Source: Candidatus Limiplasma stercoravium (GTDB lineage: Bacteria; Bacillota; Clostridia; Christensenellales; Aristaeellaceae). From it: DNA of 53,027 bases. Below the pieces are notes generated by a model. The model had not been told where the DNA came from. It ran no database searches and saw only the letters and a list, made by a program, of their open reading frames with translations. The stretch covers positions 1 through 53,027 of the forward strand of contig DVME01000111.1 in assembly GCA_018715175.1 (NCBI GenBank), in the 5' to 3' direction. This document shows positions 2,740 to 32,404 of this stretch, piece by piece (the stretch's first letter is position 1; every line of letters begins with the position of its first letter). The position numbers were made by a program, and so were the translations under genes.

Positions 2740-2763
2740 AAAAAAACGCCGGCAAAGGCCGGT
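2740..2763 (-). terminator. Rho-independent terminator after the CotH operon
   Basis: Minus-strand hairpin CCGGC-CTTT-GCCGG followed by C, G and a run of seven T. It sits 20 bases after the stop of the last gene of the operon (2784) and just upstream of the ctsR promoter, insulating the two units. Confidence 0.88.
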
Positions 2764-2783: not shown

Positions 2784-3314
2784 TTAGTCCAGCGTGCTGT
2801 CTTCATTTGTCAGCAGGTACGCCACGTATTCTTCGGGCAAATCCATTTCCGCTGAAAAGGTCTTTATGAGGTCGTCATTGACGCTTTGGCGAATGATCAG
2901 GACTTGTTCCTCGCCGTTTGGCTCATCGCCGGGGCGCAAAAACAGCTTCAGAACGCGGCGGACATTGGCGCGGCGCATATCGGTATCCTCGGTGATTTGC
3001 ATATCCGCCCACAGGCAATGGGAGATGGCGCGGTAATAATCGAGGCGAACCGTTTCTTCCTCCACGCCAAATTCGCTGGCATAGTGCGCGAAATCCTCCT
3101 GCGGAATCTGACACAACAGGGGCAGGGCGGCGCTGAGGACGCGGGTTTCCAAGCTGTCGTAATCGTTGATGGGATCAAAGCAGCCCATCGCCACCATTTG
3201 CAGCACCTGGCAACCGAAACGGCCTTCCGCGCAAACCACTTCCTGCGATTCTGCCGCGGCGCCGCCCGAAAAAGCCATGAACAGCACCACAGCCCAAAGG
3301 ATTGCCCGTTTCAT
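2784..3314 (-). CDS. Small secreted protein, paralogue of the repeat-tail protein
   Basis: I do not recognise a named family. The 176-residue product has a signal peptide (MKRAILWAVVLFMAFSGG, Ala-rich cleavage region at AAAE). The mature part is mostly helical and acidic, with four cysteines. Its C-terminal 110 residues align by eye with the repeat-tail protein encoded at 4934-5794: shared landmarks are YAS..G...E.VR..YY, then VL.LFL, then IRQS/IRSS, then LP..(Y/F)V..(L/I)..NE/DEN. It lacks the Thr-Pro-Asp-Tyr tail. The ATG overlaps the stop of the CotH-like gene by four bases (ATGA), so it is translationally coupled, and a terminator follows 20 bases after its stop. The tight operon suggests it works outside the membrane with the CotH-family kinase, as substrate, chaperone or scaffold. 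That role is inference only. Confidence 0.85.
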   Translation of the reverse strand: MKRAILWAVVLFMAFSGGAAAESQEVVCAEGRFGCQVLQMVAMGCFDPINDYDSLETRVLSAALPLLCQIPQEDFAHYASEFGVEEETVRLDYYRAISHCLWADMQITEDTDMRRANVRRVLKLFLRPGDEPNGEEQVLIIRQSVNDDLIKTFSAEMDLPEEYVAYLLTNEDSTLD

Positions 3315-4879
3315 TCGCTCGCTTCCTCCTGCGTCAGTCCGGCGATTCTTTCGTCCATCTTTTTCAGTACCTCTGAGAAATAGAACCGAATGTCGTCAAT
3401 GCTATCCGCGTTTCCTTCGCCTTTGCCGCACTCGGGCCAGCGCACGCTATCTCGCCACAGCGGGCCTTGGATGGCGTCGAAAAGCGTCTGCGCGGCTTCC
3501 ATAAGCGTTTCCTCCTGGGCCACGCCTTGGCGCAGCTGAGCCCAGCGTTGGACGATGGCGCTAGCCACCTCCCCGTCGCCGCTGTTGACCAGCGCCTCAA
3601 ACACGCAATCCATCACCAGGCTTCCGACGCGAAATTCGGTGTAGTTGACCGCCGGGTCATCCAGGTATACGTCGCCCAGGGTATGGTTGAGATCCCAGGG
3701 AATTTTATAGAGGGTATAGCCGTCGGCGCCATAAACGCAGTTAAGATACTGGTTCTTAAAGTGACAGTCATGCGCCTGGGTCAGCATGGCCCACAAGCCA
3801 TAGTCGATGGCGTTTTCCAGGCTGAGGGCGCCCGGCACGTCCTCCAGGCGGCGAAAGTTGATGGCCTCAATGTACTGCGCAGCCATGGCCCAGACGGACA
3901 GGCCACTATCAAGCGGGCCAGAGACAAGCTCGAAGGCGCGGCAGACTTCGGTGTCTGCGCAGCTGAGCAGCTCGCTGGCGGTGGGGCGGTCGTTGGTGGC
4001 GATTTTGTAAAGGAAATCCGTACGCTTGTCGCCGCCCACCTGCTTGTTGTCCACGCGCTCCTGCAAACCGTACAGCCCCCAATAGGCTCCATTGAAGAGC
4101 ACTTCGCCATAAGCGATTCTTGAACTGGCAGCCCGGACGCCGCTGCGGTTCATCGCGTCCCACAGGGCGTAAGCCAACGGCTCCCGGATCTTGCTGGCAT
4201 CGGAGTACATGGGGTTGAGAATCCAGTCGTCATCGCTGCGCAAACCGCCCAAAGACACGTTGCGCTTGGAGCCGTCGGCGTTAACGGCCTGCACGCGGTA
4301 GCTTTTTTTGGGCATGAGCTTGCTGGTGTTGCCGCGCAGGTTGATAAGAATCGCCGTGCGCTCCACGGAAAGTTCACCGCCGGTAATGGCGTACACGCTC
4401 ATGACGCCGGGCTGATCCTCGCTGTCGGGCATTTCTCCGGTTTGCGTTTGCACCGTCAGGACAGGCAAGGGCGTAAAGATCACTTTGGAAGACCTGCACA
4501 CGCCGTCAAGCACCTCGTACACCGTCACGCCCACGGATTGTTCCAGCGCCTGGCGCTTGTCCACCTCGTCGTAGGCAAAGAGGTAACATTGGGCGTTCGG
4601 CTCGGTTTCCAGGGTGATCGCGCCGTCGTAGCCTTCGGTCTGAGCGCTTTGAGGAATAAAGTAGGTGTTGGAGGCTTCGTCAAAGGGCAGCCTTTCGCCT
4701 CCAAAGGTCAAGGTAACCGGGCCTTGCGCCTCTGGAAGCGTTTCGGCCTCCTCCTGGCTGATGCGCGTCAGATGCGAAAGGCCCTGAATCATGTCGCCGG
4801 AAGCGTAAAAAGAGGCGGCGGGCAGCCAAAACACACTTATCAGCACAATCGCCGCAAGGGTCAAACGCGCCGCCCTCAT
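3311..4879 (-). CDS. CotH-family secreted kinase-like protein
   Basis: CotH proteins are atypical, secreted or spore-coat protein kinases; B. subtilis CotH phosphorylates coat proteins CotB and CotG. This 522-residue protein has an N-terminal hydrophobic segment (about residues 8-26; signal peptide or anchor), then about 130 residues of probable beta structure, then the CotH domain from about residue 180. The landmarks are LRGNTSKLMPKKSYRVQ (including the ATP-site lysine region), DDDWILNPMYSDASKIREPLAY, GLYGLQERVDNK, a catalytic-loop-like HDCHFKNQYL around residue 370, and KIPWDLNHTLGD around residue 395, equivalent to the metal-binding DFG. All key polar residues appear present, so activity is plausible. 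AGGAGG lies seven bases before the ATG. It sits 54 bases after the repeat-tail gene and overlaps the next gene by four bases. Family assignment is confident; substrate is unknown. Confidence 0.88.
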   Translation of the reverse strand: MRAARLTLAAIVLISVFWLPAASFYASGDMIQGLSHLTRISQEEAETLPEAQGPVTLTFGGERLPFDEASNTYFIPQSAQTEGYDGAITLETEPNAQCYLFAYDEVDKRQALEQSVGVTVYEVLDGVCRSSKVIFTPLPVLTVQTQTGEMPDSEDQPGVMSVYAITGGELSVERTAILINLRGNTSKLMPKKSYRVQAVNADGSKRNVSLGGLRSDDDWILNPMYSDASKIREPLAYALWDAMNRSGVRAASSRIAYGEVLFNGAYWGLYGLQERVDNKQVGGDKRTDFLYKIATNDRPTASELLSCADTEVCRAFELVSGPLDSGLSVWAMAAQYIEAINFRRLEDVPGALSLENAIDYGLWAMLTQAHDCHFKNQYLNCVYGADGYTLYKIPWDLNHTLGDVYLDDPAVNYTEFRVGSLVMDCVFEALVNSGDGEVASAIVQRWAQLRQGVAQEETLMEAAQTLFDAIQGPLWRDSVRWPECGKGEGNADSIDDIRFYFSEVLKKMDERIAGLTQEEASE

Positions 4880-4933
4880 GCCTCGACCTCCTCATGCGTC
4901 AAGGCGGGAGGCCGCGCCTCCCGCCCGTGGGAA

Positions 4934-5794
4934 TCAAGTGTCCCGGTATCCGCGGTCGTAATCCGGGGTGTCATGATAGTCCGGGGTGTCATGATAGTCC
5001 GGCGTGTCCTGATAGTCCGGCGTGTCCTGATAGTCCGGCGTGTCCTGATGGGCAGGGGTATCATGGTAGTCCGGCGTGTCATAATAGTCCGGGGTATTGT
5101 AGTAGTCCGGCGTGTCCAGGTACGCGGGGGTATCCACGTAGTCGTCGGTATATCCGTAGCTCCATTGCCAGCCGGTACTCCGGGTCCAGTCGTCATCGTT
5201 TGTCCAATCGTCGTCATCCCAGTTTTCATCCATGACGATGAACTCCACAAAGGAGGTGGGCAGGTTGTAGCTTTGGGCAATGGTGTTGGCATAATCGCGG
5301 GTCATGCTGCTGCGGATGGCCTGCCGGGAGGTCACGGAAACCTCGTCCGTATCCTGGTCCAGGAATAGCGACAACACCACCTGAATGTTGCGGTATTGCT
5401 CCTGGGAGGCCGGGTTGATCATGATTTCAGCGCGAAGCGCGTTGGCCAGGCTTTTGTAGTAGGCGTTGCGCACCTGCTCCACGGCCAAACCCTTTTGGGA
5501 CGCGTATTGCGAAAGCTGGCGGGAGGTGATGGCCGAAAGCGTGGACAACGCAGGCGCGAGCTGCTGGGCCGAAGCGGTATCCGCCGGCTCGGTGGCATAT
5601 ACGCCGTTCATCACATCATCCAGTTGCTGTGTAACGGTGCTTTGGGCGACAGCGGTGGGCGCAGGCGTTGTAAGGCTCTGCCCAGTAATGGCGCTAAAAG
5701 CGTCCAGCGCGCTGGTGCCGGATTGGGCAAGGGCGGGGACGCACAGGCTCAGAGCCAGCATGATGGTGAGAATCCACAGGGTACGCTTCTTCAT
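4934..5794 (-). CDS. Secreted protein with Asp-Thr-Pro-Asp-Tyr hexapeptide repeat tail
   Basis: Unrecognised family. The 286-residue product (start at 5794 chosen over 5818 because AAGGAG lies nine bases upstream and the signal peptide MKKRTLWILTIMLALSLCV then begins properly) is predicted to be exported, with cleavage near ALAQ. Residues about 95-200 are a helical domain homologous to the protein at 2784-3314. An acidic Trp-rich linker (WDDDDWTNDDDW) leads into ten hexapeptides of the form x-D-T-P-D-Y ending at the C-terminus. The tail is extremely acidic and offers one Thr and usually one Tyr per unit. First gene of the operon with the CotH-like kinase. By analogy with CotB/CotG, whose repeats are phosphorylated by CotH, it is a candidate kinase substrate; this is inference. 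Confidence 0.87.
   Translation of the reverse strand: MKKRTLWILTIMLALSLCVPALAQSGTSALDAFSAITGQSLTTPAPTAVAQSTVTQQLDDVMNGVYATEPADTASAQQLAPALSTLSAITSRQLSQYASQKGLAVEQVRNAYYKSLANALRAEIMINPASQEQYRNIQVVLSLFLDQDTDEVSVTSRQAIRSSMTRDYANTIAQSYNLPTSFVEFIVMDENWDDDDWTNDDDWTRSTGWQWSYGYTDDYVDTPAYLDTPDYYNTPDYYDTPDYHDTPAHQDTPDYQDTPDYQDTPDYHDTPDYHDTPDYDRGYRDT
4958..5137 (-). repeat. Ten 18-bp in-frame tandem repeats
   Basis: Ten near-identical 18-bp units encode (V/L/Y/H/Q)-(D/N)-T-P-(D/A)-(Y/H). Several adjacent copies are identical at DNA level, suggesting recent expansion by slippage or recombination; the copy number is likely to vary between strains. Confidence 0.93.
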
Positions 5795-5842: not shown

Positions 5843-5872
5843 AGTATACCCCATACACCCGAAAGCTGGGAA
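5843..5872 (-). promoter_or_regulatory. Possible promoter of the CotH operon
   Basis: Minus-strand TTCCCA (5867-5872), 18-bp spacer, TATACT (5843-5848), about 50 bases upstream of the repeat-tail gene. The -35 is weak and lies in the 3' arm region of a strong hairpin, so this is only a candidate; a sporulation sigma factor could use a different site. Confidence 0.4.
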
Positions 5873-32170: not shown

Positions 32171-32378
32171 CCGGTGTATCTGCGTGGAAACACGCGGCGG
32201 GGCGTCGCCCCGTCATGGGAATCGGATGAGACTTCCGAACTATCCCGGTAACCGTGAAGCGGACGAAAGAGCCACGAAAGGCCGCGGGCGAAAGCCCTCC
32301 CGGTCGGATCGAGCCACTGCCTATGCGGGAAGGCGCTTGAGTAGGATGAGGCCAAGTCGGGAGACCTGTTTACACCGT
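32171..32378 (+). promoter_or_regulatory. Cobalamin (adenosylcobalamin) riboswitch
   Basis: Closing stem P1 is CGGTGTA (32172-32178) with TACACCG (32371-32377). Conserved internal elements in order: TGGGAATC then GGATGAGACTTCC, CCCGGTAACCGTG, AGCGGACGAAAGAGCCAC, GAGCCACTGCC with GGGAAGGC, and the B12 box AAGTCGGGAGACCTG. A GCGTG-GAAA-CACGC hairpin and a GGGGC-GTC-GCCCC hairpin sit near the 5' end. Two terminator-like hairpins follow, and then the btuFCD genes, so ligand binding would be expected to stop expression. Identity rests on consensus motifs and P1 pairing. Confidence 0.93.
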
Positions 32379-32404
32379 ACTCCCCGGGGATGGGACATGC
32401 TATC

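Follow-up and report, generated by a model that had tools for sequence, protein, structure and literature searches.

A CotH-family kinase encoded between two related exported proteins in a Clostridia genome, one of them with a repeat tail proposed as its substrate

I describe here a three-gene operon of Candidatus Limiplasma stercoravium (Bacillota; Clostridia; Christensenellales; Aristaeellaceae), in which the gene of a CotH-family kinase lies between the genes of two exported proteins that share a domain, here called A and C, and I argue that the repeat tail of A is probably what this kinase phosphorylates. The window, by which I mean the whole stretch of DNA analysed, is the 53,027 nucleotides of contig DVME01000111.1 (positions 1 to 53,027, forward strand) in GenBank assembly GCA_018715175.1, which amounts to 2.38 Mb in 142 contigs and is 95.7% complete. 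The three genes run head to tail on the minus strand in the order A, CotH, C, with an AAGGAG ribosome-binding-like site preceding the ATG of gene A at 5794, and all three products start with hydrophobic stretches resembling export signals (inspection and hydropathy scan). An earlier reading made from the DNA letters, the original prediction in what follows, had described a CotH-family gene between two homologous exported proteins, a 54-base gap from A to CotH, a four-base overlap of CotH with C and a terminator behind them, and this description was borne out by the reading frames, by the Pfam CotH match, by pairwise comparison of A with C (26% identity, BLASTP E 3e-14) and, for the terminator, by a consensus match to a hairpin. 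The features are these.

4934..5794, minus strand: gene A, exported protein of 286 residues with an N-terminal domain, an acidic W-rich motif and a repeat tail, proposed substrate of CotH (reading frame, homology to C, profile A2)
4958..5137, minus strand: ten hexapeptides, seven of them exactly xDTPDY, the proposed phospho-acceptor tail of A (translation, repeat search)
5186..5221, minus strand: WDDDDWTNDDDW, acidic/aromatic motif at A residues 192-203, kept in A proteins (alignment A2)
3311..4879, minus strand: cotH-family kinase gene, exported product of 522 residues (Pfam PF08757, E 7.7e-29; subfamily profile A3; alignment with PDB 5jd9 via profile A6)
~3380-4345, minus strand: CotH kinase domain (own-genome match 3380-4345)
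2784..3314, minus strand: gene C, exported tailless homologue of the A domain, 176 residues (homology to A; last operon gene in relatives)
2749..2762, minus strand: terminator-like hairpin with a T run, 3' of gene C (consensus match only; the region has 6 such matches, near the shuffled mean of 4.3)
5843..5872, minus strand: weak sigma-70-like promoter match upstream of gene A (9/12 matches, not above chance)

The tail had been described as ten x-D-T-P-D-Y hexapeptides; the count of ten holds, and three of them are variants (VDTPAY, YNTPDY and HDTPAH), the array being scored by Tandem Repeats Finder at 184, 190 and 213 for units of 18, 36 and 72 bases. In front of the tail, W192, D194, D200 and W203 of the acidic motif are invariant in the 14 rows of alignment A2. 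The domain common to A and C stays below the curated cut-offs of all Pfam and NCBIfam families and has no PDB sequence match of weight, and two candidate identities were set aside, BCAL1086 (E 0.0027, under its cut-off) and DUF5817_CT (E 0.0039, under its cut-off where scores were displayed). A profile built from the two rows A and C alone nevertheless retrieves relatives in other genomes, at up to 212 bits. The window's A has no match to the peptidoglycan-binding family PF01471 (PG_binding_1); by two sequence patterns a peptidoglycan-binding domain is present in 10 of 18 A proteins, and Pfam finds PG_binding_1 in the A of relatives L060 and L048 and not in that of L050, the three scanned (G and L numbers designate genomes and stretches of DNA compared with the window). 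A phage search with protein A gave no relatives of A, none of 203 pattern matches for A in viral contigs was confirmed as a relative, and the reading frames of weak matches to the tail in other genomes were taken to encode different repeats or different proteins.

The window CotH scores 101.6 bits with PF08757 against a curated cut-off of 23.8, and a comparison of profile A6, made from the family's CotHs, with the Bacillus structure 5jd9 gives an alignment at E 1.6e-13. Through alignments A3, A5 and A6, D371 and N376 fall on the pair taken as D166 and N171 of PKA, with the same spacing, and D396 on the second Asp, while Y291 and W395 fall on the Tyr142 and Trp245 that hold the adenine in Bacillus CotH, for which the roles of the ATP-binding and catalytic residues have been described (PMC12189002). 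The residue numbers were counted from the alignments and take into account that the crystal construct is shifted by one residue; D371, N376 and Y291 are invariant in nine rows, and W395 and D396 in seven. A D228Q variant of B. subtilis CotH, a sequence outside the alignments made here, is catalytically inactive (PMC7821199). The window CotH thus keeps the residues of an active CotH kinase, as the original prediction had said, and kinase activity is predicted for it from its sequence. CotH-family proteins occur well beyond Bacillus, and the source genome holds a second, different one at a contig end (G000:C43:6-848; L001, L080; 110 bits with the Pfam model). Another CotH in the window's genus, at L077:4612-7575, follows DUF4956 and VTC (polyphosphate polymerase-like) genes, as in a module found beside Pel loci (PMC7112168). 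In genomes of genus g56, four to six CotH paralogues, mostly of 520-600 residues, stand in tandem (L106, L110, L113, L114, L116 and L117, counted within the stretches examined), with no repeat-tail protein seen beside them. A search of plasmids, made for CotH alone, gave three distant CotHs.

How far the two parts of this operon travel together was followed in a family sample of 308 genomes, in which up to ten of the best candidates per genome were scored with the A-domain profile A2 at E 1e-5 and up to four with the CotH subfamily profile A3. The A/C domain is present in 24 of the 308 genomes; beyond the family, an order sample (297 genomes) returned only G000 and G063, both of the same family, and a class sample (391 genomes) only G000. 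The CotH subfamily is found in 13 of the 308, each of which is one of the 24 domain genomes, and it is sharply bounded, its members scoring at least 546 bits with A3 (plus one contig-cut gene) and the next best CotH 239 bits. On the question posed with the original prediction, whether homologues of the domain occur mostly without a CotH gene, the answer is thus mixed, 13 of 24 genomes having the subfamily CotH and 11 of 24 no detected copy, where absence refers to this subfamily (G092, for instance, has a weaker, other CotH at 73 bits). Among those 11, five belong to a diverged tailless clade and two have contig ends where CotH could lie. The diverged stand-alone A-domain copies (L068:4980-5714, L069:4302-5090, L070:51-1046, L071:2110-2769 and L072:4822-5481) have no repeat tail, no CotH of this subfamily and no operon two-component genes nearby, and they end in a conserved TDDDVERVL-type C-terminus. 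One further scan found 12 relative loci in metagenome-assembled genomes of Clostridia such as Candidatus Pullichristensenella (at NCBI, Clostridia incertae sedis), several bearing titles that mention rectum, duodenum or rumen; these loci are largely contigs already in the family sample and were not counted twice. The contigs of L054, L057, L058 and L059 end at or just behind the A domain or tail, as expected where repeats break assemblies.

In the relatives the operon is usually longer than in the window and reads A, CotH, an OmpR-type response regulator, a histidine kinase and C, all five genes being present in G209, G192 (where the regulator is in two frames), G303, G253 and G309. Both two-component genes occur in 15 of the 19 genomes outside the diverged tailless clade, the four exceptions being G190, at a contig end, G115 and G116, with the histidine kinase only, and the window, with neither. 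No orthologous pair was found in the window's 95.7% complete assembly, where the best response regulator is 42-43% identical, compared with 57-67% between the G209 regulator and seven other operon regulators; a two-component match on contig C39 of the same genome was considered as the missing pair and taken as PhoPR instead, since it adjoins apparent phosphate-transport and PhoU-like genes (L104, read without a family search). The original prediction had made the second exported protein a partner, and C is indeed conserved, being detected in 14 of these 19 genomes, with the contig ending before its place in the remaining five; its role as a partner is a perhaps. Where the subfamily CotH was not found the order changes, to A-regulator-kinase-C in G257, to regulator-kinase-A-C in G127, G103 and G092, to regulator-kinase-A and then the contig end in G078, and to A, a gap and kinase-C in G115. 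The operon of G116 (L063:4124-7478) has A in two pieces, a CotH that stops early, and histidine kinase and C in one open frame, from assembly error or decay.

The tail of A can be read in 18 genomes, leaving aside the five tailless diverged copies (G063, G259, G182, G244 and G269) and G293, where A was not found; in G302 and G078 the tail runs into a contig end, and the frame-broken gene of G116 contributed its domain piece to the trees and its tail piece to the tail counts. In all 12 genomes with the subfamily CotH the tail contains 11.4-29.0% S+T and 6.8-15.5 [ST]x[DE] motifs per 100 residues, and in all six where CotH was not found (G115 and G078 included) it contains 0-4.2% S+T and 0-3.1 such motifs, being made instead of long Asp runs or Asp-rich repeats. 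This perfect 12/6 split has an exact probability of 5.4e-5 if the rows are independent, which they are not. The S+T content of the A core is equal in both groups (p 0.51, 17 proteins, G164 left out), and the difference in the tail appears within what is placed as a single genus, G209 having the kinase and TPDYNSPA units, and G257 Asp runs and no CotH found. The median charge per residue is -0.19 for kinase-bearing tails and -0.58 for Asp-rich tails, and full phosphorylation at [ST]x[DE] would bring the former to -0.45. The kinase-plus-substrate idea of the original prediction is in part supported by these sequences, in that S/T-x-D/E tails go with the subfamily CotH and Asp-rich tails with its non-detection.

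The repeat units themselves vary from genome to genome (DTPDY, TPDYNSPA, NTPD, SPDTPD, DDTDDDD, DDTGDD, NSPDYD), and what the CotH-linked tails have in common is [S/T]-x-[D/E], as in DTPD, NSLD, DTDD, DTGD and NTVD. An acid stands at +2 of 170 of 279 Ser/Thr residues against about 81 in shuffled tails, over the shuffled mean in 12 of 12 tails and with p<0.05 in nine, and +2 is the only offset among -1, +1, +2 and +3 that exceeds the shuffled mean in all 12; the three tails missing p<0.05 (G091, G190 and G164) are all acid-rich, and an acid at -1, also common, is under the shuffled mean in G209, G192 and G116. The peptidoglycan-binding part was removed for this test and retained in the G309 tail for the pooled test given below and in the G302 tail for the composition counts. 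Taken together, the 12 tails contain 186 T and 133 S. The original prediction had the Thr, or the Tyr, of each repeat modified; Thr or Ser with a +2 acid is what the tails share, and Tyr is not.

I therefore take the operon to be, probably, a dedicated extracytoplasmic kinase-substrate module in which CotH would phosphorylate the tail of A into a wall-associated polyanion, with Asp standing in for phosphate where the kinase is absent. Protein A would be exported and held at the cell surface by its own domain, joined in roughly half of the relatives by the peptidoglycan-binding domain, and CotH, exported as well, would phosphorylate Thr and Ser in the [S/T]-x-[D/E] units of a presumably disordered tail, turning it into a dense polyanion with a charge nearer that of the Asp-rich tails, a charge that relatives without the kinase would approach with Asp itself. 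C, a tailless copy of the A domain, would be a partner that perhaps serves the kinase or the substrate as an adaptor, the response regulator and histidine kinase of the relatives' operon would probably control it, and the polyanion would most likely serve for holding cations or cationic molecules at the wall.

Several results pull the other way and have to be counted against this proposal. All 16 other genomes of the window's genus are without the A domain at E 1e-5, and G293 has the subfamily CotH with no A detected. Only four kinase-less loci (G257, G127, G103 and G092) are contiguous enough to exclude CotH in place; the G078 contig ends at A, so CotH could lie beyond, and the gap in G115 may hide one, since the response regulator is missing there too. 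On the other side of the split, the CotH of G190 is cut, the G116 operon is frame-broken, and A and CotH of G302 are on different contigs. The number of evolutionary events is small: the best A-domain tree (without G164, its domain being cut by a contig end) needs three switches of tail type and, when G115 is not assigned a state, two of CotH state, and the data do not reject a tree in which all kinase-less rows form a single clade (p-AU 0.34 with A and 0.19 with the histidine kinase). Tests for independent CotH changes were not significant and the independent pairs too few for a sign test; in the other direction, the histidine-kinase tree also puts G257 among kinase-bearing rows, and a separate change is suggested by G209 and G257, of one genus, differing in kinase and tail. 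As to the motif, pooling +1 and +2 left only five of 12 tails at p<0.05, the +2 test was made after the offsets had been seen in that pooled test, and shuffle p-values are too optimistic for tails built of repeated units. S/T-rich acidic repeats (ETPA/SETPAE-type) also occur in unrelated proteins of the relatives, and a kinase acting outside the cell would need a phosphate donor there.

The tail could instead be an ordinary extended linker of the Pro-Thr type that spans the wall and is possibly O-glycosylated, with CotH acting on C, on the outer domain of the histidine kinase or on a surface polymer, and the linkage of tail and kinase reflecting descent only. S/T-P repeats are common in exported proteins, and this view, which I consider somewhat unlikely, gains from the ETPA/SETPAE-type repeats just mentioned, from the single change of state that the trees do not reject, and from the other CotHs of the family, which adjoin VTC and DUF4956 genes (L077) or form tandem arrays, a low-complexity scan of 16 stretches with such CotHs (L106-L121) having given nothing taken as a repeat substrate. 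What speaks against a plain linker is that the constant feature of the units is the acid at +2 and not Pro (DTDD, DTGD, NSLD, NTVD), that the kinase-less tails are Asp-rich and not neutral, and that this CotH subfamily is found only where the A/C domain is found. It is unlikely, too, that A and C serve the adjacent histidine kinase as exported sensors and that phosphorylation of the tail sets signalling instead of wall charge: the regulator and histidine kinase share the operon in those 15 of 19 genomes, yet the window keeps A, CotH and C without an orthologous pair, and 10 of 18 A proteins have a peptidoglycan-binding domain by pattern.

The original prediction had also allowed for a spore system, its proteins coating the spore as those of cotB-cotH-cotG do, and this part found no support; I regard it as very unlikely. 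The coat of B. subtilis spores is assembled from the cytoplasm of the mother cell, whereas A, CotH and C look exported, and their conserved partner is the OmpR-type two-component pair, both of which favour the vegetative surface over the spore. The clustering of a kinase gene with genes for repeat and partner proteins does recall cotB/cotH/cotG (PMC7821199), but the CotB and CotG repeats are rich in Ser, Lys and Arg and those of A are acidic. A strong Spo0A match (at least 136 bits) in 18 of the 24 domain genomes, the window's included, makes sporulation possible for these bacteria, whereas in G302, G115 and G099 Spo0A_C is not matched, and the matches in G192, G092 and G063 are weaker; four of these six are less than 90% complete. 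That the kinase fold performs other chemistry on the tail Ser/Thr, such as AMP transfer, for which SelO is a precedent among kinase-like folds and which the question of a phosphate donor outside the cell might invite, is highly improbable given residues that match an active CotH kinase and a replacement by Asp that would suit phosphate best.

Elsewhere in the window, ctsR, mcsA and mcsB, named from Pfam matches (CtsR, UVR, ATP:guanido phosphotransferase), lie beyond the hairpin on the same strand, and a cobalamin riboswitch is found at 32175-32383 on the plus strand (59.3 bits, Rfam RF00174).

I know of no identified bacterial substrate for CotH proteins outside the spore coat, and among the open-access literature matches listed there was neither such a substrate nor an operon like A-CotH-regulator-kinase-C. 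If the module is real, it would provide a bacterial CotH kinase that is exported and whose defined substrate lies outside the spore coat, together with a gene-level case of phosphate and Asp substituting for each other across species, and it would bring up directly the question of what serves such a kinase as phosphate donor outside the cell. Comparing genomes points to a likely substrate and its likely target motif, and the relatives with Asp in place of the sites serve as a natural control, so that the substrate question is open to a single co-expression experiment.

The nearest worked-out system is CotH/CotB/CotG of B. subtilis, in which CotB and CotG, products of the same gene cluster as CotH, carry Ser repeats that CotH phosphorylates at multiple sites (PMC7821199). 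The clustering of a CotH-family kinase with repeat-protein genes is common to both; the products in the window, however, look exported, the usual operon of the relatives includes a two-component system, the repeats of A are acidic S/T-x-D/E units set apart from CotB and CotG by the description of theirs, and the flanking proteins A and C share a domain without a library match. A second likeness is to the module of CotH, polyphosphate polymerase and DUF4956 beside Pel loci in Gram-positives (PMC7112168), another instance of CotH outside the spore coat, to which the L077 CotH of the window's genus is comparable by its VTC and DUF4956 neighbours; that CotH, though, is of another subfamily (under 240 bits with A3), and no A/C domain was found beside it. 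The third comparison is with FAM20C, the animal secretory-pathway kinase, called a distant relative of CotH (PMC7821199) and marked by a Glu at +2 of its target Ser (PMC12650399), which would share with the present case this acidophilic trait, seen here as the +2 enrichment at putative sites in the presumed substrate tails, and secreted substrates. The present system differs in being bacterial and operon-linked, with one apparent substrate, mostly D and not E at +2, Thr more often than Ser, and a phosphorylation that is predicted. It is tentatively, as a possibility that I would not yet call probable, that I propose a bacterial parallel to FAM20C with its secreted phosphoproteins, namely a wall polyanion charged by an exported kinase on S/T-x-D repeats or, where the kinase is lacking, by aspartate, and normally under two-component control.

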